DNA of 64,000 bases, taken from Echinarachnius parma (lineage: Eukaryota > Echinodermata > Echinoidea > Clypeasteroida > Echinarachniidae). The notes beneath the pieces were generated by a model that ran no database searches, was not told the origin of the DNA, and worked only from the letters and a program-made list of their open reading frames with translations. The DNA lies in the NCBI GenBank assembly GCA_037951105.1, contig JBAMJV010005504.1:372001-436000 (forward strand), read 5' to 3'. Shown here one piece after another: positions 1,849 to 43,070 of the stretch; the first letter of the stretch is position 1, and the number at the start of each line of letters is the position of its first letter. A program made the position numbers and the translations under genes.

Positions 1849-3377
1849 CTCCTGTCATAACTTTTTTTATTGCTCGACCGTTTTGGCTCAGATTCTCGCT
1901 CATGATTCTTCATATTTACTTTATTCTATAGCAAATAACCCAAATCTAGGGTGGAATTACCCTTTAAATGTAATTTTCTTTCATATAAGACAATAATCTC
2001 ACAACTTATGAAATTTGGCTTGCAAATCGCGGATACTCCCTTTAACATTCAAGTCTCCAACTGAGCAAATTGTGATTAGGCCTGGGACGAAAACCTTTTT
2101 TGCTAATCAAATATTTGACCAGAAAGGTAATCGGATAAACCGGATATCCAAATCATTTGTAACTACTAAAAAAATTAAAAATTTAATTATGCTGCACCCT
2201 ATAGAAACAGTATAATTGTGATACCATCATTTCAGGGATCAATTAATCTAAGGACTGTTTTTTAACCAACACCTTTGTTTTCAGAGATAAATGTCATAAT
2301 CTACACTAATTGCACACAGTATTTAGCATTTCATCGGACTGACATCATCAAACAGATCTCCTGTCATAACTTTTTTTATTGCTCGACCATTTTGGCTCAG
2401 ATTCTCGCTCATGATTCTTCATATTTACTTTATTCTATAGCAAATAACCCAAATCTAGGGTGGAATTACCCTTTAAATGTAATTTTCTTTCATATAAGAC
2501 AATAATCTCACAACTTATGAAATTTGGCTTGCAAATCGCGGATACTCCCTTTAACATTCAAGTCTCCAACTGAGCAAATTGTGATTAGGCCTGGGACGAA
2601 AACCTTTTTTGCTAATCAAATATTTGACCAGAAAGGTAATCGGATAAACCGGATATCCAAATCATTTGTAACTACTAAAAAAATTAAAAATTTAATTATG
2701 CTGCACCCTATAGAAACAGTATAATTGTGATACCATCATTTCAGGGATCAATTAATCTAAGGACTGTTTTTTAACCAACACCTTTGTTTTCAGAGATAAA
2801 TGTCATAATCTACACTAATTGCACACAGTATTTAGCATTTCATCGGACTGACATCATCAAACAGATCTCCTGTCATAACTTTTTTTATTGCTCGACCGTT
2901 TTGGCTCAGATTCTCGCTCATGATTCTTCATATTTACTTTATTCTATAGCAAATAACCCAAATCTAGGGTGGAATTACCCTTTAAATGTAATTTTCTTTC
3001 ATATAAGACAATAATCTCACAACTTATGAAATTTGGCTTGCAAATCGCGGATACTCCCTTTAACATTCAAGTCTCCAACTGAGCAAATTGTGATTAGGCC
3101 TGGGACGAAAACCTTTTTTGCTAATCAAATATTTGACCAGAAAGGTAATCGGATAAACCGGATATCCAAATCATTTGTAACTACTAAAAAAATTAAAAAT
3201 TTATTTATGCTGCACCCTATAGAAACAGTATAATTGTGATACCATCATTTCAGGGATCAATTAATCTAAGGACTGTTTTTTAACCAACACCTTTGTTTTC
3301 AGAGATAAATGTCATAATCTACACTAACTGCACACAGTATTTAGCATTTCATCGGACTGACATCATCAAACAGATCT
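1849..3377. repeat. Three-copy tandem repeat, 509-bp unit
   Basis: Three consecutive units of about 509 bp, nearly identical base for base (for example the block starting cctgtcataac at about 1851, 2360 and 2869). Few substitutions separate the units, indicating recent duplication or homogenisation. Short open frames of 66 and 76 codons repeat in each unit but have no recognisable motif and are probably incidental. Confidence 0.95.
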
Positions 3378-3787
3378 GTACAATTTTCTAGAAAAGAAAG
3401 GTGAGACTGATAATCTAATGGATGCTAAAAAGCCATGTCTACAAATAACTCAATCTGGGTTGGCTTTTCACTCCAAATTACCTGTGGATGATTAGTAATA
3501 TTGGAGTGAATCCATAGCTGTAAAAGGAGTGTCTATGGGGATTCAATTTCCATGTGCATTCTGCCACAAACAGTGTAAATCACATACCCACCTATTGAAA
3601 GCCAGCCAAATGTGACCCATTCAGTAGAAAGTTGGCAGTTTGAGATGTAAAAATGTATCCAGTGATATCAGACGTTCCCTTATATTCCAATTTGTAACAT
3701 ACTTAGAAGTCTTTATTTTAACTCCTATCCCAACTTTCAATAAAAAAACATATAACTAAACATATTTCAATTGATTAAATGTTCCTA
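3378..3787. other. Single-copy intronic/3' region of the FOXJ locus
   Basis: No repeat recognised. On the minus strand a 36-bp segment (3482-3517) has an ACAG acceptor, a GTAATT donor and phase 0; it is discussed as a weak exon candidate. Nothing else stands out. Confidence 0.4.
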
Positions 3788-5091
3788 TACAGACTGTCCC
3801 AGAAAAAACAAAACCGGGTTTCATGGCAGAAATTTTATGTTATAATGAATAATTTCCTTGATGATATAAATATGTCTGAAAAGCTCTGTCTCTTCTTTCA
3901 TTTGATATACAACTTATGGCACATAATTCACGCAGGACTGAATTAGAACGATGGAAAGTAGTGTTACCAAAATTCCATTTGCACGCAGAAATTGCAAGTT
4001 TGGCCTTTGGGTGAGGTTTTGGGGTGAGTTTTAAAGGGACTTAGTAACATTGTCCAAATCCTCAAAATTAATTTTTCATTCTAGCGGTTCCCTCATACCT
4101 TGTTGTATTCATATTAACAATAAAATCATGGGACAGGTTTCGGTTTTTCAAATTTCCCTTTCGTTACAAAGATATGTACGATCGAAGTATTCAAATAAGA
4201 AAAACTCCGGGCGAGTTTTTCTTCTGTGTACAAAGTGAGTGCAGTGAGTTATTGAATATCACTTTGCATTTTCGCTCATTACTTGGCCATGCAATGTCCA
4301 TTTGACTTGAAATTTTCACACAATACCCTGTGGACATATGAGATAACAATACTATACATTGCATCAACCATTCATCACTTTTTGCACATGTCAACAAAGT
4401 TACTAGATCCCTTTAAGGGTAGTAAACTTACTTATTTTGAAAAAGGACAAACACTGCATACAAATTCATAATTTTATCTTTTATCCGACACCTCATGATT
4501 AAAAAATAAATGATTTATGCCCGAGAACGAGTACAATGAAAACATGCTTGATTCCAGCCCAAATGAGTAACTTTCCTGATCTAGCCTGTTTCCCATGTTT
4601 TCCCTGATCCCCATGTTTGTGTAAATTCACTCATGCATCAAAGTCCATTGTCAGCTGCTAAGTCAGGAAAGCTGAGCGACTTCTTACTCAACTTTCACTC
4701 ATTTGAGCAGAAATCAGGCATGTTTTCATTGTACTCGTTCTCTGGCATAAATCATTTATTGTTTGAGCATGAGGTGTCATGTAAAAGATACAAACATGAC
4801 CTTTTATGTGGTGTTTGTTCTTTTTTTAAATAAGTACATTTACAATCCTTAAAACTCACCCCAAAAAACTCACCCAAACTTAAAATTTATGCGTGCAAAT
4901 GGAATATTGGTAACACCACTTTCCATTGTTTTAATTCAGTCATGCTTGAATTATGTGCCATAAGTTGTACATCAAATGAAAGAAGAGACACAGAGCTTTT
5001 CAGACATATATATATAATCAAGGAAATTATTCATTATGACAGAAAATTTCTGCCACGAAACCCGGTTTCGTTTTATCTGGGACACGGTGTA
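3788..5091. mobile_element. Foldback element with long inverted arms
   Basis: Left arm 3788-4030 plus 4417-4550; right arm about 4710-5091 in inverted orientation. The ends read tacagactgtccca and tgggacacggtgta. Shared internal blocks include the complement of the gaacgagtacaatgaaaaca segment. The left arm is interrupted by a separate TTAA-flanked MITE. Ends resembling TACAGnnTGTCCCA suggest a mariner-like origin; no transposase is visible. Confidence 0.8.
4031..4416. mobile_element. TTAA-flanked MITE, family T1
   Basis: Bounded by TTAA at 4031-4034 and 4413-4416, with inverted ends aaagggacttagtaac / gttactagatcccttt. It is nested in the left arm of the foldback element, whose sequence resumes directly after it. 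Copies occur at 20573-20949 and about 56236-56605. TTAA duplication is the piggyBac target preference; no coding sequence is present. Confidence 0.85.
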
Positions 5092-7750: not shown

Positions 7751-7840
7751 TGGACCATTTGCAAATGCTGGAGTTACTATTACACTGCCCAAACTGTTGC
7801 CTGAACTTTCTAAGCTCTCCTCAGGACTATAGGGTGACAA
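7751..7840 (-). CDS. FOXJ2/3: FOXJ2/3 probable coding exon 4
   Basis: A 30-codon segment in phase 0, bounded by an ACAG acceptor and a consensus GTAAGT donor. It encodes a Ser-rich stretch including SPYSPEESLESSGNSLGS. This resembles the TPYS...DSL...SGSASPTLA region after the basic cluster in vertebrate FOXJ3, so position and composition fit residues 176-205. The upstream intron is 6.5 kb. The call rests on splice sites, phase continuity and weak similarity; no domain is present. Two damaged relatives lie downstream at 6310-6345 and 6474-6870. The remaining 3' exons, including the FOXJ3 YNFEDLSASFRSLYK-like motif, were not found in 1-7750. Confidence 0.7.
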
Positions 7841-7869
7841 CTGTTAGTGTATAAATTAGGGGAAAGAAA

Positions 7870-8426
7870 GATAAGACATGGTTAATGAATTCAATTTCAA
7901 AATCAAATCAGAACTCTTGGGATTGATTTAGATTCTTTGCAAATTAAGCATGTTTTTAATACACTCGCATACATGTATGTACATGAAATCTACCTAGTAG
8001 ACAACAACAATGGCAGGAAGACCTCAAATCTAAGATTTCCACAATGTGAACTTTCATGACAAATTGTAATTACCTACATGTACAGGTGTGTGTTCATGCA
8101 TAAACGGTAAATACCAAATTTGATAAAATATGTAGACTACATGTGTGATGCAGGAACTACAACAAAATACCAGACAAAGCTGTAAATTTTATGTACCAAT
8201 ATACGCATTGTATGCTTGTACGATTTCATAAACATGTACTAAATTCCATGTGAATTCCCACTGTGCCCTCAGGTTGATCTTGCAACAAATTACATTTGAA
8301 TAGGCATGCTCAGTCAAACAAATCATTCATAAATCCATGCAGTCAATTCTAGAAGCATCATCCAAAATGGGCCCAGTATACACTGTACAGGGTGTACTTT
8401 GTATTAGCACTGACTTGTAGTATACG
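7870..8426. other. FOXJ intron 3 sequence, no feature recognised
   Basis: A+T-rich intronic DNA without clear repeats or conserved open frames. Confidence 0.45.
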
Positions 8427-8685
8427 TATGTGACCGGCTATAGCAAAACCCTGCACTTGTTGGTAAAAATCAAAATGTAGATATTTATACCATTAGAAAG
8501 GCCTCATCACAAGCTTTCATTTGATGCTTTGTTCTCACAAATTGGTCAATACTTGGCGAGGACATGACTGTTTCAATTTTACAATCATCTAGGTCTTTTA
8601 CACACATTATGTGAACTTAAAATGACAATTTCTTCAAAACATGATATACTGACAAGTGCCGGGTTTTGCTATAGCCGGTCACATA
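8427..8685. mobile_element. MITE with TATGTGACCGG ends
   Basis: 259-bp element whose ends tatgtgaccggctatagcaa and ttgctatagccggtcacata are perfect complements, extending imperfectly to aaaccctgcacttgt. TA at both edges suggests a Tc1/mariner-type target. Confidence 0.85.
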
Positions 8686-8804
8686 TATTGGTTAATAAAA
8701 CAGTTACAAAATATTAACCAGGGTTAATTTACATTTAAGATTCTTTTACTTTTTCTTATTTACAAATTATGCCATTGCCATAAATATTATTTTAACTGAT
8801 CTCT

Positions 8805-9199
8805 TTAAAGGGGGACCACCAGGCAAAGAACAACACATAATTATATGTTTTGTGTGATATCAAATAGATACCCAACATTTTGCAAAGGGTTTTATAATTC
8901 ATGAACAATGCAATTAATTACCACCACTTATGGAACCATTATTTCATGGTTCCATACGCGCCATACCCTGCGAGTGTGCCAATTCTATTCACGCGTACGT
9001 TTGGAGACAATAGAATCACGGACGATGTGTTTGTCCTAGACAAAAGATAGTCTTCGTACGCAGACCCCTGAACACATTTGTAGTATGGTGATGCTTTTTT
9101 TTCAATAATATATTTTTTCTGAAAACCTATTTTTCTGAACTTTTTTAGTGGAATGGACTACTCAAAATATTACTTTTTTTAAAAGATTATTATTTATGC
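8805..9199. mobile_element. TTAA MITE, family T2 (right end decayed)
   Basis: Starts TTAAAGGGGGACCACCAGGC and keeps T2 internal blocks (ccaccacttatggaacc, atagtcttcgtacg). The right end, expected to read ggtggtaccctttaa, is lost. Relatives: 13780-14193, 18313-19230, 31361-31773, 59041-59435. Confidence 0.75.
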
Positions 9200-20204: not shown

Positions 20205-21393
20205 GCTTATGCCGCTCTCACACTGTGGCGAATATGAAAAATTAAACATTCGCTGCAAATTTGCCGACAATGATACGAACCTTACACTTAACTATCAAAT
20301 TTCTGAATTTCTTGTGAATCTTCTGCGAATGTTACGAATGCTTACGAACGCCCTTGTGATTCTTACAAATGTCTTATGATCTCTAAAAATGCCTTGCCAT
20401 CAATAAGAATGGCTTGTGATTGCTTACAATTTTGAGAAAACAATGAGAATTTGCTTTCTTTGCGAATGTTATGCTGCTCTCACACAGTGGCTTATAGCTT
20501 ACGAATACAATTCGCCACCAATTTGCAATGATCACAAGGTGTTTCCCAGACATTCGTAAGCATTAAAGGGATCTAGTAACTTTGTTGACATGTGCAAAAA
20601 GTGATGAATGGTTGATGCAATGTATATTGTTGTTATCTCATATGTCCACACTCCACAGAGTATTGTGTGAAAATAGTCAAATGGACATTGCATGGCCAAG
20701 TATTAGTAATGAGCGAAAATGCAAAGTGATAGTCACTAACTCACTTTGTACACAGTAAGAAAAACTCCACCAGAGTTTTTCTTATCTGAATACTTCGATC
20801 GTACATATCTTTGTAACGAAAGGGAAATTTGAAAAACCAAAACCTGTCCCATGATTTTATTGGTAATACGAATACAACAAGGTATGAGGGAACCGCTAGC
20901 ATTAAAATTTTATTTTGAGGATTTGGACAATGTTACTAAGTCCCTTTAATGGCAAGGCTGACAAAGTTGTTGGCAACATCTCCGACACTAGTCTCCAAGC
21001 CTTCAAAGGCCGCGGACATGTAGTTTCCTCCTTACCAAACTGTGATTGTTAATTTTGGTATTTTAAAATGTTTGTTTCTTTTATCTTATTTGAGCTGTAG
21101 TTAACCACTTGATTGGCCTTCCAGAGCTTCACCAAGACTCTGGTGGGCTACTGTTCACAAGTGCATTCTATATAAAACAAATTTAAAGGCATTTGTAGCA
21201 ATCGTAAATTTAAAGGCATTTGTAAGCATTCGTAACATTGGCCCTGGTGGTGTCGCAAGGGTAGCCAAAATGGTATAAAATACCCCATCTTCCCCAGGGC
21301 TGTCCTATTTGCCATGCATGAGTTGTGTAGTCATTTCATATGTCAAGTGTTCGCAAGCATTCACTAGATTTGTATGGGCATTCGTAAGTAACC
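20205..21393. repeat. Repeat rich in cattcgtaagcatt motifs
   Basis: Degenerate, irregular copies of cttacgaatg / cattcgtaag recur through 20270-20560 and 21180-21390, and again right of the DIRS-bearing element (27935-27985). Two blocks begin gctctcacac(t/a)gtggc (20216, 20474). A T1 MITE is inserted at 20573. Confidence 0.6.
20573..20949. mobile_element. TTAA-flanked MITE, family T1
   Basis: 377 bp between TTAA sites, ends aaagggatctagtaac / gttactaagtcccttt. Internally it has aaaaactccaccagagttttt, a small hairpin also seen in the 4031 copy. Confidence 0.85.
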
Positions 21394-21750
21394 CTGAGTC
21401 ATGTCGGATATATTCGGAACCGGGTCCCGATAAACTGTAACTGGTCGGGAACCGGTATCCCGATAAATGTTTGCCGTCGAAATAGATTTTCAGTAGTGAA
21501 AATAGTATCTGCTAAGTAGCCATACTTACCTATAACATTAAATTGCTATTCCCTTTACTACCCACATTCTACCGGCAAAGGATTTCTCCTAAGGAGAAAT
21601 AATCAAAAAGGGTCTGAGGCTAAGCCTAGCCTCCCCTGTAGCACTGCGGGGGGTCCCCCGCCAGCACTATATAACGGCGCTACACGCTTCCCATTTCCTC
21701 TTTCATTTGACGCCCCAAGACAGGGACTAACAAGGGGAGGAGGGCGGGTT

Positions 21751-21852
21751 GTTATAGGTAAGTATGGCTACTTAGCAGATACTATTTTCACTACTGAAAA
21801 TCTATATCTGCGTCAGAGTACGCCATACTTACCTATAACATTAAATTGCTAG
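21751..21852. repeat. DIRS internal complementary region (ICR)
   Basis: Bases 21751-21805 are the reverse complement of the left terminal repeat's outer end (21483-21537). Bases 21805-21852 are the reverse complement of the right terminal repeat's outer end (about 27311-27358). Read on the minus strand, the ICR spells the right end joined directly to the left end, as expected for a circle-junction template. Minus-strand 5' splice donor consensus AGGTAAGTAT occurs inside the second half and again in the left repeat. Confidence 0.9.
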
Positions 21853-21944
21853 ATTCCAACAGTATATAACTGGGAGGTGGGCAAAAGGAAGCGTAAGAAC
21901 GGCGCTGCTGACAGCAACCGCGAAATAAAGGAAATTCCGTTACC

Positions 21945-22560
21945 GGACAAATCCTATGACCAGTGACAGGAAAAGACAGCTCGTACAAATCCTGTATCTG
22001 ACTGAAAGACGTCGGTGAGGTAACACGACGTGAATGCACTGGCGTTTGACCAGTAGGCAGTCTCCAAGATATCATACATGGAAACTCCAGCAAAGAGGGC
22101 CAACGATGCCGCTAGACCTCTGGTATCATGAACTCGAACCCTTTCTGAAGGAGAGCAGAATCGCCAGCCGATTTAATGGCCGACACTATCCATCTAGAGG
22201 TCGTCGCCCATGAAACAGCTTCATGAGGTGGATGGGCACTAACGAAAAGCTGCTCGGATTGGATTGGAGATCACGAGTTCAATGCAAGTACCATTTAAGA
22301 ACCCGAACAGAACATCACAGCTCATCCTCTCACATGGACGAAAGAGAATGTATAGATGGAAAAAATCTCTAGAGCCTGCGAAGACTCGTGTTGATTCTTT
22401 GCAAGGAAACAAGCATGAGGGAGAAGCCAAACCTTGTTTATCTCCCAACGGACATGACCCTTCATCGTGTTTATAAGGGCATGAACGGAACTGCAACGTT
22501 GTCCAGATGCTGCTGTAAATAGAAAGACAGTTTCGTTACCGAAAACACCTGCCAATGGAA
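21945..22560 (-). pseudogene. DIRS tyrosine recombinase, frameshifted
   Basis: Minus-strand fragments in family order. ASGQRCSSVHAL (around the first catalytic Arg) and LLPHACFLAKNQ lie in one frame (22322-22555). TTSRWIVSAIKSAG lies in a second frame near 22180. HDTRGLAASLALF and AYWSNASAF, followed by a conserved Tyr-containing stretch, lie in a third frame near 22010-22125. These are the R, HxxR and W/Y boxes of DIRS tyrosine recombinases, which cut and rejoin the circular cDNA at the target. At least two frameshifts and several stops separate the pieces, so no intact protein is made. Confidence 0.85.
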
Positions 22561-24978
22561 CTAGTAACTACAGATCCACACACATCCATAAAGATGGCCT
22601 CAAGTGGACTAAAACAATTATAATATCGATCAGTCCTATAGCGCCTATCACAATCGATAATCATCTTTAGGCGCTTTACAACCTTTGAGATCGTGTACCC
22701 CGGAGCAATATCCTTAGGCGAAGGTACACCAGTCACCCTATAGACTCATTGTAAGTAAGTACTATAGACACTCCCCATCACGTGCAAGTGGGAGGCAACG
22801 TTCAAACCATACTTGCACAGTGTTCACCAAACAAGTGATAATATGGAACCAACAACCAATACAGTCATGGCACAGGATGTTAGGGTAAACCAACTTTAGC
22901 CACCCAGGAACACAGGGAATAATTTTCCCCTTAAAGTTGATTAATAATTTCAGCCGATGGATAAATATTTCAAATGAAATTCTGACACTACTATGGATAG
23001 TAGTCATGTATAGCACTATAGCAGTCATGCAAAAATGCACAGCAAATTGCGATGCGATACCAGGAAAATTATTCCATGGAACATATCAAAGTTTATAAAC
23101 ACTCTGATATTCATAATTAAGAACTAAAAACAACGCTGTTGATCAAACAACCCAATCCTATTGTTTGACCTCATTGCAACCCTTAGAGGTATAGTAGGTC
23201 AGACGGCCTAATAGAGATCCCCCACCCGAGAGGACTCATGTAAACATGTGCAACGAACAAACTCGGGCTGCTTGCCCATAGGATCGGGGCAGAGAAAAGG
23301 ACGCGAACTGTAACGATAGCACACCCAAGCTCGCAGGCAGTGGCCATCCGATCGCCGATAAAGAATACGGAACTTGAGAGTAAGTCGAATTCGTTACACA
23401 TGCCTATAATATCGCCAGCGCGGGAAGGGTCCGAAAATAAAATCATAGAGCCAGTGAACTAATAAAACTGGCGCTCCAAAATGAAGACAATAATATAGTC
23501 AGCGCAGGAAAGGAGCTCAAAAATGAAAACAGAGCCCGTTCCATACGCCCTGTAATATCGCCCGTCCACCGGGAAGAGTGCGATAAGGTAGCGAATTCAG
23601 GAATTAGTGACTCCAAAAATCCAAGAAGATAATGAGGCTCACACGAACACCCTATAACCGTGATCGCCTTGCCCAGAAGCTCGGCAAGGCCAATACAAAT
23701 ATGGAGCTAATAAATGAGCGATCATACAGGGCCCCAAATATGCAACTAAGTCCACTCCATACGCCCTGTGACATCCCCCGTAGGCACGGGAAAAGGGGCA
23801 GATAAATAGAAATAACCCATTCGTACATCGAACACCACCGAGCGGAGATGGAGTAACGTCGAATAGCGCTTTCAGATCCGAACATAAAAAGTACCGTACG
23901 GCGAAAGGCTATATTATAAATGTATAATATCGTTTCCCATATTACTGAATACCGATAGTTTGACGGCACAGAGCAAAACCTTAGGCTTAGAGTTAGATCC
24001 ATAAAACCAAGATAGAATTTAGAAATTATACGAGCAACTGCATAAACTCATAGAAACACATTTTTAATGTAAAACATTTTCAAGAATTTGCAAATTTTCC
24101 TCCAAATCAACTTCTTGTCAACCCATTAAGAACACAAAAATTAAGTCTCTTCACGGCGCACAATTTTGTGTTGCATCGAAATGCACGCTGCCACTGGTGC
24201 GCGGCAAGGCGTGCAACGCCTCGGGACGCTTGTTCAATTCAGGAATAGGTGGAATTGTTTACTAAGCATCCATTTATTATCCTCCATTAATGCACCAAAT
24301 TCAACTTTGAAAAAAGATTCGACAATTTTCCAGGTGAATTTGCATGTCCAATAATACAACCCGTTCAGTAATACAACTGTAGGCTACAGCCTCGATAATC
24401 TTGCATCTGACGCATAAATATCTGCCATACGTATGATGCAGTGTCCGAATATGGCCCCCCTAATAATAATAATATTTAACAACAAATATCTGAAGAAATA
24501 TCTTTGAAGAAGCCACAATTTCGTCAAGACTGAACTTCAAATAAAGATGAAACAATGTCATACCTTATTTGCCGACTGCGATCGTAAATTGTCCCGTAAT
24601 ATAATGGCGATTTGCATTTAACTACGTAAACAAAATTGCATTGAAAGAGAGTGTCGTAATATACTAATACTAGTAATAGTAATATGGCCCCCAATAAAAG
24701 GTCCATTATCCTTCATAAATGATGAACTCTTTCCAATAAAAGTGCCACCAAAAAGTTCTTAAAAACTTCAAAATTACATTTATACTCAAATAATTGTATT
24801 CATTGACAAATCTGCCGAATCGGAGCCGATTCTAAAACTATGTCAAATATTCCCCCGTGCAAACAAATTTCCCATTTGTTTGTGGTATACACTTGAATTT
24901 AATAGCGCGCAAAAGATGGGTTTTGCTTGCGCTGCTAAGTTCATAAAAGCCGTACCCCCATCAAAGGGCCCAAAACAA

Positions 24979-25260
24979 TCATGAGAGAAGACGGAAATTT
25001 ACAGGAGTCATCCTTCTTTTCCGTACCCTGATGTAATATAATGCGATGTGGTACACACTTGTTAGTTTGTTACAAAACAAGCTCACCTCGTTAGCGGCAG
25101 AGAGCGAGGTTACAACCCCCATATCAGCCCCCTGCGATATAGGCAGGATCTCGTGCCCGATATGTCGCATCCGATCCCGCCGCGAGCGCGCGGCGTGCAG
25201 AAAGCTTGGAGAACACGCGAAAACCAATCAAGGAGCTGAGGCTGTCGAATCACCCATCCG
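24979..25260 (-). pseudogene. Possible DIRS reverse transcriptase remnant
   Basis: In one minus-strand frame, a STASAPW segment is followed after about 20 residues by RHIGHEILPIS. This could be a corrupted form of the RT stretch running from L-S-T-A-P-R to Y-I-D-D-L-L. Its place between the gag-like and recombinase regions fits DIRS gene order. The Asp-Asp pair is not preserved. Similarity is weak, and the rest of RT, RNase H and methyltransferase could not be recognised in 22600-24950. Confidence 0.35.
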
Positions 25261-25899
25261 TAAGGATATGGGGAGGCCCGATGCCATTTGCCGATAAAAT
25301 ACCGATAAAATACCGAGTCGAAAAGGCAGATAATCAAGGGGGCTGTCGTATCACCCAAACGAACGGGTAAGCCCCAGTGACATACTTGTACAAAACACTC
25401 GTCAGTGTCCGACTTGCGGACCGTACGATACCATGGATGTGCTGATGTATGTACGCTAACATAACACAAGATGGCGCTATATAACTATAAGCAGAGTTAC
25501 GTGCGTACTTGATATGATAGAGAAGAATTTATTACAAAAACATTTCTATAAACATTCGTTCATAATACCACATGCGTCTAACGAACGAATTAATAAATTC
25601 GCCTAGGAATTCCGTAAAGAATATATAATTCTCCAAAATGAGGCTTTGACTAATACTGATAAAGAATCAAAACAGTTATGAAACAGCTAGGATATCCCGA
25701 TCGATAGGATGCCGTTTCTAAATTAAGAGCCATGACAAATCATCCTCTCTTAGCTTCCACTCCGATTGGGCGGAGGGTCAGCTCAATTTATTTCCCATGA
25801 AAGCTTTTAAGCTTTTGGGGAGAGAATAAAAACAAACTATAGCCCAGTATTATATCAACCCAGACTCCGCCGCCTGCACGCGGGCGAGTCTACGTCTGC

Positions 25900-27130
25900 T
25901 CAGGGCCGAGCCGTACATGACGGCGGGTTATATGGCCCGTTCATGTCCACAGAAAACTATCATTCTTCAAGTGCCATCTACCGGCCCGCCCCTACATACC
26001 GGGACCGAGTAGACGGCTAATCCCCTGGCGCAGCGGGCCCGCTGTGCTAGGAGCGCTGGGTTAGAGCGGAGGAGCGGCGATCGCTTCCCCGCGTTAGCAC
26101 TAGTCAGTGCCTAGGGGCCGAAACTACCGCTGGTGCTCGGGCAATAACAGTGGGTTCGGCACTAGCCTTTTTCGAGCTTTCTCGACGATTTAGGCTTTGG
26201 ATTTTCCCTTGTCCGTCCGTTCGAGAACTGGGGCACGGATCAACACGGGTTCAAAAAGCCACAACAAAAATTGAAGAATAGTGTACCGTATACACTCGAA
26301 AAGTGGTGTATAACTGACAACTAACTATAAAATCCAACTCGGTTGGGAAACACGACTAACTATACACGCGGCAACATGGCGTAGATATAGAAAGAAGGTT
26401 GGTGCGGCCACCACGATACAATCAAGTTTGCCTGAACCTCGATCAGCACTTGCATGATGATCGAGAATGGTATTGAAAAACCAAACATGAACCAGTCAGT
26501 TCGGGGCCGTTGATTGATCCATTATTTGCGGCCCATTACACGGAACGTTTGGCCTTCGCTCTAGTGATTCGAGCAGCGCTGGCCTGTACTTCCGCTCCCG
26601 TAGTCCCGGCGGTAACTTCGGCCTCCACTCCGGGCCGGGTGTATCGTGTCTGCGATCATGCGCACGTGCGGTAGGCACTTCGGTTTGTCTTTGTCTTTGT
26701 CTTTGACTTCTTGGTCGGGAAGAGTGTCCTTGGGTCACTACCAGCGCTCTTTCTACTCTTCCCTTTCCACTTGGTTTCGGGGTTAATTTCCGGCTTATCG
26801 AGGCATCAACCTACCGGAGAATTACCCTTCGTACCCACGGGACGACTAGCTTTATCGGGCCACAACCTCCGCTAGTGTCCTTGTTTGTTTGTAGTTTTAG
26901 TCTGCCCCCTGTCCGACTGGCCACTACCAGTCGGTTTATCAGGGAGAGACTGTCTCTTCTTTCCAATTTAAGTACAGACCGTCGTTGGCGTATTATCGTA
27001 CTTATGTTTACTTACCTTGTGATTTTCCAGAAAAATGGCAATCTCCCAATGAGATGAGGACTGTGAAAACAGTGATGAAAAATGCGGTAGAGAATCAAAA
27101 GTTTGCGGGCGCCGCACACCTGACGGTGGT
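25900..27130 (-). pseudogene. DIRS gag-like region, decayed
   Basis: G+C-rich stretch just inside the 5' (right) terminal repeat. Minus-strand frames are rich in Arg, Pro, Ser and Gln (for example RPRSQRQRQRQTEVP within 26496-26738) and interrupted by stops. Basic Pro-rich sequence in this place is typical of DIRS gag, but no conserved motif was recognised, so the call is positional. Confidence 0.4.
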
Positions 27131-27927
27131 CCCAATCAGGCGGCGGCGGCAAAGGAAAAGAGGGAATGGGAAGCGTGTAGCGCCGTTATATAGTGCTGGC
27201 GGGGGACCCCCCGCAGTGCTACAGGGGAGGCTAGGCTTAGCCTCAGACCCTTTTTGATTATTTCTCCTTAGGAGAAATCCTTTGCCGGTAGAATGTGGGT
27301 AGTAAAGGGAATAGCAATTTAATGTTATAGGTAAGTATGGCGTACTCTGACGCAGATACTCGGACCGGTAAAATCACGCAATCGTGCAAGCATCGGCAAA
27401 AATGCACTGTTTGGGGCTTTATATTGCTCTTTTCATATGCAAATAACATTACAAATATTGACGCTTTTATGGAATTACATATCAATCTTTACGGGAAAAT
27501 AGTTACAGACTATCCAAAATTAACTCACATTTCGCAAGAAAAGTATTTTTTCCGAAGTAAATTGGACCTAGAAATCGATCGATAACCCACTGAAACAAGC
27601 CGCTAAAATCGAAGGTTGAAGTTAGCAGCAAGTTTTCGGGTCCCGATATCGCGAGAAGATCGCGAGTGCATGCTATATATTCCTGTTCAATTTCTGACTG
27701 TCAAACAAAGTAACGAACCAAGAATTTCTCGAAAATAACCACTCTTTAAAGTAAATGATATCGATTGCCCCGTTTTTATTTGAATTCCGCTACATTAAGT
27801 GATAATCTTAATTTATTTAACATTTTTATATTTTTTTTTTTTTATTCGGGGCACCGTTTCCGTAAAAACGAAACCGGGTCCCGATTGAAACGGTCGGTAA
27901 CCGGTGTGATCGACCGAACCGACTCAG

Positions 27928-28603
27928 CCTTATTCGTAAGCATTTGTAAGCAATCGTAACATTCGCAAGAAATTCAGCAAATGATTGTTAAGTAATCATC
28001 AGATCGTCTGTGTAAGAGCATCATAAGGAGCATACATGTTCCTAAAATTCGCAACACCCATAAACCACCATAAATTTGAACTTCTCTCTGTTTTTTGGTG
28101 TTTTTTTTTTTGGGGGGGGGGGGGGGAAATGGGATAATTTGCAAATGCGATTAATACTGATTTCCTTTTGTTGTATTTAAGAACTGTGAATTTACTGGGA
28201 ACCACCATCAAGTACAGGAAATTTAGATATTTTGATAAAAAACAGAAATGTGGTACTGGTACAATAGAAGAAATCAAAGGTGGCATGTGCATTCAGTTGG
28301 AAGGGGTATGAATAATCTAGGGCACAACTGTACATACGGATGTACTGACAACCCCAAAACAAAATGCAACAACCATTTTGTTGCGGAGACATACAATACA
28401 AATATTAATTCCAGGATTGAATACGGATACTTTGCTAATTTTGCTGAAGTTTGCTAATCCATTATGCTACTATTACCCGTTATTTGTTTAATTACATGGT
28501 TGTTTTATTGTACTGTAAAAAACAAAACAAAACATCATAATAACACCCCATTTGGATAAGAAATTAGTTTTATACAATGTTCCATTACATGTATATTACT
28601 GGC
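27928..28603. other. Intron 2 sequence with homopolymer tract
   Basis: A T run followed by a G run lies at about 28105-28127. No gene or repeat family was recognised otherwise. Confidence 0.45.
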
Positions 28604-29642
28604 CTGAGTCATGTCGGATATATTCGGAACCGGGTCCCGATAAACTGTAACCGGTCGGGAACCGGTATCCCAATAAATTTTTGCCGTCGAAACTCGGGAC
28701 CAGTAAAATCACGCAATCGTGCAAGCATTGGCAAAAATGCACTGTTTGGGGCTTTATATTGCTCTTTTTATATGCAAATAACATTACAAATATTGACGCT
28801 TTTATGGATTTACATATCAATCTTTACGGGAAAATAGTTACAGACTATCCAGAATTAACTCACGTTTCGCAAGAAAAGTATTTTTTCCGAAGTAAATTGG
28901 ACCTAGAAATCGATCGTTTGTTCAGCATCGCGCCAAGCTGAAACAAGCCGCTAAAATCGAAGGTTGAAGTTAGCAGCAAGTTTTCGGGTCCCGATATCGC
29001 GATAAGATCGCGAGTGCATGCTATATGATATGCTAGCTAACTTCAGTTCCCGGCGCGGCACGCACGCTAACTTCAGTCGGCCAGCTAGCATTGCGGTGCA
29101 CCGCTACGATCGAAATTTCCCGATAATTTGCACACTTTTTTTCATTGTTTCGGGGCTTATTTTTTGTTCTGTTCAGCTTTCAAACGCCATAGAATCATGT
29201 AAGTAGAATATCAAAACATTTTAAAATGGTATAAAATACCCAAATACGTACTTTGAGCCACTTTTTGAATGCACTGGCTCATCAGCTAGATCATACATAC
29301 ACTCCCCGGGAGTGTTGGCCTAACTTTGTGTGATCATCTGTAGGCAATAGCGTTCAAATGACTAGCAATTTTGCGCTTCCTGTTCAATTTCTGACTGTCA
29401 AACGAAGTAACGAACCAAGAATTTCTCGAAAATAACCACACTTTAAAGTAAATGATATCGATTGCCCCGTTTTTATTTGAATTACGCTACATTAAGTGAT
29501 AATCTTAATTTCTTTTTTAACATGTTTATATATTTTGTTTTTATTCGGGGCACCGTTTCCGTAAAAACAAAACCGGGTCCCGATTGAAACGGTCGGTGAT
29601 TGAAACGGTCGGTAACCGGTGTGATCGACCGAACCGACTCAG
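28604..29642. mobile_element. CTGAGTC-ended DNA element, undivided copy
   Basis: A second, uninterrupted 1,039-bp copy of the element at 21394-27927, with the same CTGAGTC/GACTCAG ends. It has about 380 bp (near 29020-29400) missing from the split copy. It contains gtcgaaactcgg, the continuous form of the sequence the DIRS element interrupts elsewhere. No intact gene was recognised. Confidence 0.75.
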
Positions 29643-29699
29643 CCTTAGTTTACAGTCTCATTGATGATACATGTACTTGAAATAAAACAAACACACATG

Positions 29700-31295
29700 G
29701 GCAATTCCACGATAAAGTGGACATGACCACCAAATTTTCAAAATGGTCAGATAGTTTTAATTTTGGTATCAAAATAAAGCTTAAGAACTGAATTTTTAAA
29801 GTCTGACCTTTAAAATAGAAATATACATCAGGAACATATTAAAATATGCGCATAAAATATGAATAATTAATTTTCACTCAAATGTCTGGAAAACGTGTTG
29901 AAAATAAATCAATGTAGCAAGAGCAAGTAAGACAGGAGGTAAACACTTATTATATTTTCTCAGAGGTTTAGGGTTGAATGTAATAAAAAAAATCATTGAA
30001 GTTCATTTTTTTCCTTTTGATATGCTTCAATGAACAATTCATTTATGATAAAGAATATTGTCCCGGTGTTACGGTAAAAACTGATATTTTTAGCATTGTA
30101 AGAAAATTACGAACACAAAAAAAAACACTTAAATTGCCCAAATCTTGACCACACATATCTACCATAAACAAGTATCAAAATGATGATTGGACATTTCATT
30201 AATTAATTAAAAATGGTTGAATAGTGGTCCCGGTGTTACGGTCACTGTAACACCGGGACTGTAACACCGGGACTTACATTGCAATAGTACAGGGAGCATA
30301 GAGAATCACTGCATACTAAAGTGACCAGCTAGTTTCTGTCATGTTGGGGTGGTAGCTTGATGCATACATACTAAATTGTTGCTTGATCTACTACCTAAAG
30401 TAAAAATGTTTTGAGTTTTTAGTAAGACAACCCATTTTTCCATAGACTTTGTACATTACAGTCCCGGTGTTACAGTGCAATTTTGTATACTCTAGTTCAT
30501 AATTATCTTGATAATAGTTTTTTTTTACAAATAACACCCAATTATTATTATTGAGTCTCTACTACACCAAATCAACATAGCCACTTTTCAAAATGTTCAC
30601 TAACTTCACAGAGTTTTGCCAGTAAAGTAAGACAACCTGATTTTCCATAGACTTTGTACATTACAGTCCCGGTGTTACGGTACAATTTTGTATACTCTAG
30701 TTCATAATTATCTTGATAATAGATTTTTTTTACAAATAACACCCAATTATTATTATTGAGTCTCTACTTAACCAAATCGATATAGCCACATTTCAGAATA
30801 TTCACTAACTTCACAGAGTTTTGCCAGTATAGTAAGACAACCTAATTTTCCATAGACTTTGTACATGCCCTTTCAGAGGTCCCGGTGTTACGGTCATGGT
30901 GTTACGGTACAATTTTTTATATGCTAGTTCATAATTATCTTCATGATAGATTTTTTTTCCAATTAACACCTAATTATTATTATTGAGTCTCTACTAAACC
31001 AAATAAATATAGCCAAGTTTCAAAATGTTCATTAACTTCACAGAGTTTTGCCAGTATGTAAAGTGTTAAAAAAAGCATGTCCTTTTTGCGTCCCGGTGTT
31101 ACAGTAGTAATTAATGATGCGTAACTCATTAATAAATGAAAATTTTGTATTAATTTTTCTTCTTCAAAGTTGCTTGTGATAACAGTCAAAGATATACAAT
31201 AAAAGATTGTTCTCATTCTTTACACTTAGTTTGTTATTTACATTTGAAAAGTGAAAATGTGTTCTGAAGTGTCCCGGTGTTATCGTGGAATTGCC
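29700..31295. mobile_element. 1.6-kb GGCAATTCC-ended element with 6-bp duplication
   Basis: Termini GGCAATTCCACGATAA / TTATCGTGGAATTGCC are inverted and are flanked on both sides by cacatg (29694-29699 and 31296-31301). The interior is A+T-rich and carries gtcccggtgttac about seven times; from 30460 to 31091 the spacing is near 205-215 bp with repeated flanking text. No protein was recognised, so it looks non-autonomous. A shorter relative lies at 10894-11224. Confidence 0.85.
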
Positions 31296-35509: not shown

Positions 35510-36150
35510 TCGCCCACTTGCGCGCACTTGACCTTTGACCCCAGAATATCATGGAGGCCAATATAGGGCACCTACCAATCAAGTTTGGTTACAAACGGAT
35601 GCAGGGTTGGAAAGTTATCAACCCTAATAGACTCTTGCAGGTAAAATTTCACATTGACCCCCATTTGACCTTTGACCTACTTATGTGACCTTTTACCCCA
35701 GGACAATGTAGGGCATCTACCAATCAAGTTTGGTTACAAACAGATGCAGGGTTGGAAAGTTATCAACCCTAATAGACTCTTGCAGGTAAAATTTCACATT
35801 AACCCTCATTTGACCTTTGACCTACTTATGTGACCTTTGACCCCAAATATCATGGAGGCCAATGTAGGGCATCTACCAATCAAGTTTGGTTACAAACAGA
35901 TGCAGGGTTGGAAAGTTATCAACCCTAATAGACTCTTGCAGGTAAAACTTCACATTGACCCTCATTTGACCTTTGACCTACTTATGTGACCTTTGACCCC
36001 AGAATATCATGGAGGCATCTACCAATCAAGTTTGGTTACAAACGGATGCAGGGATGGAAAGTTATTCAAATTTTTGTAAGCGTCACGGACGGACGGACGG
36101 ACGGACGGACGCAATTTGGATCCCTCCACCTACGGTGGGCTCGACAAAAA
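35510..36150. repeat. Tandem repeat, about 150-bp unit, with GACG tail
   Basis: Three to four units sharing accaatcaagtttggttaca, gatgcagggttggaaagtta and catttgacctttgacctact. It ends in a (GACG)n run at about 36087-36112 and a ccctccacctacggtgggctcgac block. Each unit holds several TGACCT half-sites by sequence. Confidence 0.85.
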
Positions 36151-42290: not shown

Positions 42291-42342
42291 ACTTGTTCTA
42301 AACAAGTATTACAATTCTAGTTTTGTTTCGTTTCATACACAC

Positions 42343-42720
42343 CTTCCAGCCGTTCCCTGCATCCCTGTAATACGGGAAATTGTCGCAAATCCACTGGTAG
42401 ATTTCACTGAGAGTCATTTTCTTTTTCGGTGAGCTGTTGATCGCGAACGTGATGAGGTTCGCATAGCTGTACGGCGGCTTCCCGTCCTTCACGGGCTGCT
42501 GTTCGTCCCAAGTTGCGCTAGTATCGAGCGGGGAACTTGGCGATTTTCGCATAGGAATAGTACCTTTTGAGGGGTCCAGAGAATTATTCGAAGTTGGTCC
42601 ATTTTTGCCATTCGGTGTAGTACCAACTGGTATATTCAACTGACCCAACCAGTCCATAGAAGTTAGGCTGTTGCCTAATTCTCCTGCCTTGGCACTAGCA
42701 CTGTTTGCTGCGTCCGCCAT
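42343..42720 (-). CDS. FOXJ2/3: FOXJ2/3 forkhead transcription factor, coding exon 1
   Basis: First coding exon, 126 codons, of a nuclear DNA-binding transcription factor. The N-terminus carries SLTSMDWL (residues 18-25), a motif shared with the N-terminus of vertebrate FOXJ2/FOXJ3. A low-complexity Ser/Pro/Asn linker follows, then the first half of the forkhead winged helix from about residue 79 ([16 protein letters not shown], then [13 protein letters not shown], ending GNGWK at 126). This half covers helix 1, helix 2 and the turn before recognition helix 3. The start is the first ATG, in good context (A at -3, G at +4), and gives the expected FOXJ N-terminus. Codon 126 is followed directly by a GTGTGT donor; the open frame runs 14 codons further but is intronic. 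Exon 2 restores the domain in the same phase after an 8.5-kb intron. FOXJ2/3 rather than FOXJ1 is chosen from the N-terminal motif and helix sequence; a single pre-duplication FOXJ2/3 gene is expected in an invertebrate. Confidence 0.95.
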
Positions 42721-43070
42721 TTTGCTTGTTTAGGTGCAAGAAGAACCGCATTACACGATGCGCATAAATATTGAAAGACCCTTTCGCAATTATTCCTTGT
42801 TGTTTCAACAAAATCCGACTCAATTTCCCTATAAATCTTTCACAAATATTATAATAATTCCCTCACTGTGTGTATCGAGTGATTTTCTTCGTATTATGAA
42901 CCCGGACTTGGGTCCTAATTTTGCTGCGGAAGTACGTCAGATGTAGAGCGCCGCTTCACTACTTTTGCAGCACAGGACCCCCTGCGAAGACTGCCATGGT
43001 AGCGGCTTCCTTCTTACGTCACCGTTCGGTCCACTCGCGCGCGCGAACAGATTTCGGATTGGCGAATACT
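42721..43070 (-). promoter_or_regulatory. Candidate FOXJ2/3 promoter and 5' UTR
   Basis: The region upstream of the FOXJ start codon is richer in G+C and CpG than its surroundings and has no obvious TATA box. It holds a composite ETS/CRE-like string GCGGAAGTACGTCAG (42926-42940), a TTACGTCA CRE/ATF-like site (43014-43021) and a CpG-dense patch near 43035-43048. ETS and CRE sites are common in TATA-less CpG promoters. The transcription start is not visible. The promoter role is inferred from position and composition. Confidence 0.5.

Follow-up and report, generated by a model that had tools for sequence, protein, structure and literature searches.

How can a retrotransposon without protein genes of its own come to lie, in young copies, at different places in a genome? 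The question is raised by a 5.9-kb element of the DIRS type in a 64,000-nucleotide stretch of Echinarachnius parma DNA (the window; G000:C5498:372001–436000), taken from an assembly of 1.2 Gb in 14790 contigs. We interpret it as a large non-autonomous DIRS1-like retrotransposon moved in trans, and assign this reading a probability of roughly 0.85. It is a young DIRS-type element that no longer has protein genes, retains the ends that such elements presumably require and holds unrelated DNA in its middle; a fuller relative in the same genome probably assisted in its copying. Its inverted terminal repeats (ITRs) together with an internal complementary region (ICR) are likely the cis-acting parts. 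A preliminary description of the window had recognized a DIRS element inserted without target duplication. What it overlooked, and what is of greater interest, is that this is a non-autonomous derivative whose interior is foreign.

The architecture of the element follows the DIRS1-like plan. Its ITRs have divergent outer ends, and the two arms (pair I1, 21519–21703 and 27157–27341) are complementary at 99% over 185 nt. The ICR at the 3' end is complementary to both ends in joined form, the complement of the left end being fused to that of the right end. The preliminary description had read it in this way, and pairs I2 (66 nt, 94%) and I3 (47 nt, 100%) bear this out. As judged from sequence, the length and match of the ITR arms, the ICR and the flank repeats are too great for chance. 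An assignment to the Ngaro, PAT or VIPER type, with split direct repeats in the order A1-B1-A2-B2, was rejected because the element shows inverted repeats and an ICR; the single direct repeat of the end region, D8 with 30 nt, coincides with sequence common to ITR and ICR. A LARD-like derivative of a long terminal repeat (LTR) element was also rejected, as the direct LTRs and target duplication that mark such derivatives were not found.

Five full-length copies are located at different places, with pairwise Kimura two-parameter (K2P) distances of 0.0050–0.0177 (0.5–1.8%); C352, C8755 and C6143 are fragments and were left out of the five-copy counts. The longest open frames of the five copies measure 127–171 aa, a length matched or exceeded by 12 to 78 of 200 mononucleotide shuffles, and no frame goes beyond the 95% level of the shuffles. 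The coding regions that define an autonomous DIRS1-like element, namely reverse transcriptase (RT)/RNase H, methyltransferase (MT), gag and an intact tyrosine recombinase (YR), are absent: RT and RNase H are missing, as is most of gag, the YR is not intact, and tblastn recovered only scraps of gag and of the MT side. The YR remnant aligns with the protein of a second relative (L021, see below) at 38–40% and 59–61% across the five copies, with the same break each time, and with the C4345 relative at 60% and 78%. Since copies 0.5–1.8% apart have an identical break and insert, decay evidently preceded amplification, and coding capacity was lost before the copies multiplied. In the C6 copy, the 3' ITR is split by two insertions (L013:640–1110, L029:1307–9008), one of them bounded by the inverted pair TATAATAGCGTC/GACGCTATTATA; part of this ITR drops out of the alignments, where fewer columns were counted.

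A six-frame search of the element against Pfam revealed no family above the cut-off, and sub-threshold matches to a Nab2-like zinc finger (E=0.052) and to HtaA (E=0.16) were taken as chance. Formally, this is the outcome that the preliminary description had named as a refutation of its reading, but the assignment rests on other grounds. The ITR/ICR design, the broken YR remnant, and ends that are 95–100% like those of a relative bearing RT and integrase matches all support DIRS ancestry.

This relative, L012 (C4345), lies in the same assembly and has the ends of the window family; its frames include ones of 1144 and 313 aa. The 1144-aa frame matches RVT_1 (E=2.5e-22) and, below the cut-off, Phage_integrase (4.5e-4); the 313-aa frame matches RT_RNaseH (1.1e-7) and, below the cut-off, Dam (0.0046). 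In the PDB, L012 is best matched by an RT/RNase H (4ol8) and by Ty3 Gag-Pol (7q5b). Aligning the window element with L012 gave identities of 0.95–1.00 in the first 400 bp, 0.82–0.94 up to 1052, and 0.95–1.00 in the last 146 bp. The two are colinear on the YR side (89.5% over 1059 columns) until 3.86 kb without a match set in. The insert is followed by a short, weakly matching MT-side piece (68%), then by the deletion of RT, RNase H and most of gag, and finally by the 5' end, at 72% over 826 columns.

The middle of the element is thus occupied by 3.86 kb of non-DIRS DNA with dispersed repeats, as expected of ordinary genomic DNA or of nested insertions. In donor searches for this interior, 40 of 2790, 705 and 125 candidates were scored, and 26401–27150 was searched solely as part of the larger span 22540–27150. 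Among the 40 scored, the full-length matches to that span were the same five copies; no single-copy donor locus was found among the 40 scored of 2790, 705 and 125 candidates, which is not proof that there is none. We also notice that in other DIRS derivatives (C254, C496; L025:4217–5300, L026:3539–4243) a dispersed repeat related to window 24381–24837 abuts gag, with the contact in L025 and L026 at about the same gag position.

The flanks of the element, 21393–21482 and 27362–27932, match the nearby repeat 28603–29647 at 97–100% in pieces. When joined they give GTCGAAACTCGG, which is unbroken within that repeat, just as the preliminary description had stated. It had placed the termini at 21483 and 27358, with the empty site and the ICR as independent lines agreeing to the base. 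Both lines carry one ambiguous A and cannot settle the ends; comparison with other copies, which it had proposed as a check, shifts both ends by one base. At the left end, an A precedes TAGATTTT in 7/7 distinct copies, reading A followed by TAGATTTTC (eight rows, C4345 showing one flank twice). At the right end, GCAGAT is the element's stop in 8/9, C352 having GCAGAC, and the base after it varies (A, T, T, A, A, C, C, C); C254 and C496 have a common flank, so that distinct right ends ending in GCAGAT number 7/8. Because the left A is constant and the base past GCAGAT is variable, the A belongs to the element and the next right base to the target, which sets the element at 21482–27357.

The same boundaries emerge from the empty sites. 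Those of C6 and C207 are compatible solely with an element reaching from ATAGATTTT to GCAGAT, i.e. 21482–27357. Across the junction, two of the three C6 paralogues read TGACCCCAAACTTTGA and the third TGATCCCAATCTTTGA, and the C207 paralogue reads TTTGATTCATTT. Ungapped scoring favoured these ends in 3/5 comparisons (C207 and two C6 paralogues). In the window they tie with a 1-bp duplication (19 vs 19 of 24), and for the third C6 paralogue the ends 21483/27358 score 15 vs 14, both at unrelated places. The window's empty paralogue has a one-G difference beside the junction (CTCGGGACC vs CTCGGACC), so the window site alone leaves room for a 1-bp duplication with later deletion. Insertion without duplicated bases, as claimed earlier for the window, is nonetheless consistent with all four related empty sites (window, C6, C207 and L019 of a second family), two of which, C6 and C207, are decisive. 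The earlier statement that such insertion is an established DIRS trait agrees with the available parts of PMC3266345 and PMC8969392, where it is standard. Within the DNA fetched around C8093, C10709, C4345, L021 and L022, no empty sites were found.

For L019, the joined flanks read GTGGAATATGATGGGG and the paralogue GTGGAGTATGATGGGG. Its target itself contains TATGATG, the terminal heptamer of the element, and on its own this site would also permit a reading as a 7-bp duplication; since the heptamer is present in L021 and L022 with other flanks, it belongs to the second-family element. The TATGATG in the target (L019:355–377 and a paralogue near L019:211) may point to circle–target homology extending over more than 3 bp. 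The 3' flank (sense) is N-T-Y in 11/11 elements, seven of the window family and four of the second, L020 being omitted as its end is missing. The 5' junction (sense) is followed by ATC in the window family and by ATT in the second. Comparing the trinucleotide of the 5' end with that of the target, the T and the pyrimidine agree and the first base is the target's own, so that the two are not strictly identical. According to the available text of PMC3266345, DIRS1-like elements mostly begin and end NTT (23/28 annotated elements), and recombination with an identical trinucleotide has been proposed; the window element, unlike these, starts ATC.

The second family offers another pair of a long-frame element and gutted partners. 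L021 (C2089) contains frames of 933, 376, 248 and 187 aa, whose Pfam matches all fall below the cut-off (RT_RNaseH 0.022, RVT_1 0.072, Dam 0.0023). Its DIRS identity is based on these matches, together with its ITR/ICR and the similarity of its proteins to those of L012. L019, L020, L022 and L023 have the same ends as L021, with well-conserved shared parts of ~400 bp and ~170 bp. Between L022 and L021, identity is 0.91–0.99 in the first 400 bp, 0.99 in the last 100 bp and 0.80 in the preceding 100 bp, then falls to 0.48–0.61. When these four partners were searched by tblastn, the L021 proteins gave nothing at E up to 1 and the L012 proteins gave two chance-level matches alone (E 0.39 and 0.46). 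Their longest frames are 157–187 aa, and 18 (L019), 10 (L020), 43 (L022) and 1 (L023) of 200 shuffles reach the observed frame; L023 may retain a residual one. A six-frame Pfam search of the L022 interior returned 0 families. Part of the second-family interior is found in at least five loci, one of them partial (C6143), and it is unlike the interior of the window element, save for one L020 stretch lying in a dispersed repeat. L024, with a weak end match, holds a DDE_Tnp_IS1595 transposase and was set aside as unrelated.

Within the window family, the 3' ITR and ICR show the lowest mean p-distance of all parts (0.0035), compared with 0.0076 in the YR remnant, 0.0085 in the MT-gag remnant, 0.0096 in the 5' untranslated region and 0.0164 in the insert. 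This conservation could stem from recent homogenisation among copies rather than from a need in cis, which we regard as unlikely. Homogenised ends are what we infer if every cycle rebuilds them from the ICR, but the ends of the two families, 58–81% alike in 50-bp steps, have stayed different, each matched by its own ICR, so no homogenisation between families has taken place. Spread without an RNA step, through DNA-level duplication or through recombinase-driven excision and reinsertion of DNA circles, is less probable still. A circle excised by the YR would equally insert without duplication, but it would need no ICR, and both the conservation of the 3' ITR and ICR and the end/ICR pairs matched within either family fit ICR-templated reverse transcription. 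Segmental duplication is disfavoured, for the joined flanks of each copy match their own locus alone at full length, the remaining matches being dispersed repeats. Decay of an ordinary autonomous DIRS by mutation after insertion is very improbable: the YR, MT-side and gag remnants do persist in the right order, but the break and insert common to five such similar copies place decay before amplification, and the interior has no match to the RT of a relative whose adjoining YR side is 89.5% identical.

A large non-autonomous element moved in trans could have arisen and spread as follows. An ancestor would have lost most of gag together with RT and RNase H, and ~3.86 kb of unrelated DNA would have entered between its YR and MT regions. 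The transcript of the gutted element would be reverse transcribed and circularised by the proteins of a full DIRS relative, with the ICR serving as the template that rebuilds and joins both ends. A YR would then insert the circle, opened between ATCTAT and ATCTGC (sense), beside a target N-T-Y with no target bases duplicated. Templated end repair, circle formation and YR insertion are here modelled as in the available parts of PMC5633606 and PMC3266345.

On the other hand, several observations weigh against this interpretation. In L012, RT and RNase H are in different frames, and a 1268-bp repeat of its own 3' end plus flank (2734–4001, 7759–9024) lies within the gag region, which may reflect a misassembly or a template switch; for both reasons L012 is not certified as an intact helper. 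The 5' ITR (p 0.0112) is not more conserved than the MT-gag remnant. The second family and L021 share a weak stretch of ~300 bp (62–63%; L019, L022, L023), and short ~42-bp units near the 5' end are common to L021 and the same three loci, so the common part of this family is not strictly ITR and ICR. Finally, what the sequences show is the structure, the common ends, coding loss ahead of amplification, insertion at different places and duplication-free empty sites, whereas we infer from them that movement occurred in trans, through RNA and a circle, with the ICR as template, and which element was the helper.

Between ends that they have in common with an autonomous partner, LARD and Dasheng-type elements carry a large non-coding interior, and they have LTRs, an integrase and a target duplication. 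The window element resembles them in its interior and partner-shared ends, and differs in having ITR and ICR and no duplication. SIRE, of the SIRE/VIPER pair, is, as far as its available description goes, likewise a non-autonomous tyrosine-recombinase retroelement built from the two ends of its partner. SIRE is ~0.4 kb long with split-repeat parts, in contrast to the 5.9 kb, the ITR/ICR and the large passenger interior of the window element, and its mobility is left open in the consulted part of the describing paper. With DIRS-1 of Dictyostelium and SkoDIRS1 of Saccoglossus (6052 bp, ITR 16+202 bp, ICR 67-63; PMC3266345, in part), the window element shares ITRs with a short divergent outer part, a 3'-end ICR of both joined ends, a short junction motif, the lack of target duplication and a length of ~6 kb. 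It differs from them in lacking intact RT, RNase H, gag, MT or YR and in its foreign interior. Our literature searches, in the portions of the sources available and without comparison to Repbase, found no large non-autonomous DIRS derivative, SIRE/VIPER being the sole non-autonomous tyrosine-recombinase retroelement met; the exact phrase non-autonomous DIRS gave no paper.

The features of the element are collected in the table. The repeat that acts as its empty site (28603–29647, also forming the flanks within 21393–27932) is roughly 1 kb long with CTGAGTC/GACTCAG ends and may be a DNA transposon of the non-autonomous kind; the C207 copy, too, has a piece of it (82%) at its side. Elsewhere in the window, an exon at 42301–42729 (minus strand) encodes part of a forkhead domain, its N-terminal portion (Pfam Forkhead E=2.2e-18), which by eye we take to be FoxJ2/3-like. 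Tandem arrays occupy 35529–36065 and 30421–31056, with periods of ~145–156 and 205 bp. Scanning the window for Rfam families and tRNAs gave 0 matches.

Table. Parts of the DIRS-type element and its empty site, in window positions
Feature	Position	Strand	Remarks
Whole element	21482..27357	-	5' ATCTGCG, 3' ATCTAT in sense; sense = minus, ICR at 3' end
Target-derived trinucleotide N-T-Y adjoining 3' end	21479..21481	-	TTC in sense
3' inverted terminal repeat	21515..21714	-	97.5% over 202 columns
Internal complementary region (ICR)	21751..21851	-	junction of the two ends between 21805 and 21806
Broken C-terminal tyrosine-recombinase remnant	21957..22534	-	identical frame break in 5/5 copies
Interior without match to DIRS proteins or long-frame relative	22534..26389	.	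full length solely in 5 family copies among candidates scored
Dispersed repeat in interior	22913..23078	.	80–85% to listed loci
Dispersed repeat piece in interior	23920..24377	.	71–78%
Dispersed repeat in interior	24431..24932	.	74–82%
Short dispersed repeat in interior	24974..25050	.	81–90%
Methyltransferase-side short remnant	26390..26470	-	colinear with long-frame relative (68%, weak)
Remnant of gag N-terminal region and upstream DNA	26511..26954	-	58% over 59 aa, E=5.9e-7; DNA 71% to L025
5' inverted terminal repeat	27157..27341	-	inverted-repeat pair I1
Related repeat acting as empty site	28603..29647	+	flank alignment

Duplication-free insertion is already known, and a finding that merely restated DIRS insertion would be ordinary. 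In the available part of PMC5633606, the replication mechanism of DIRS elements is described as experimentally not fully proven, and the requirement for the ICR is named as a feasible experiment. The two pairings of a long-frame element with gutted counterparts, both in one genome, mark candidate cis-acting parts, and with them the ICR question becomes testable by comparison. They suggest that several kilobases of other DNA can stand in for most of the interior, RT, RNase H and the greater part of gag included, and that DIRS elements can shuttle genomic DNA. On balance, we lean towards the view that the DIRS retrotransposons include a class of large non-autonomous derivatives of their own. This class would have originated two or more times in this genome; its members would carry captured DNA, kilobases in length, and retain hardly anything in good order except ITR and ICR (~400 bp at the 3' end, 150–170 bp at the 5' end). 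Such derivatives would represent a natural deletion experiment, one suggesting that these parts suffice in cis and that DIRS elements can move passenger DNA.

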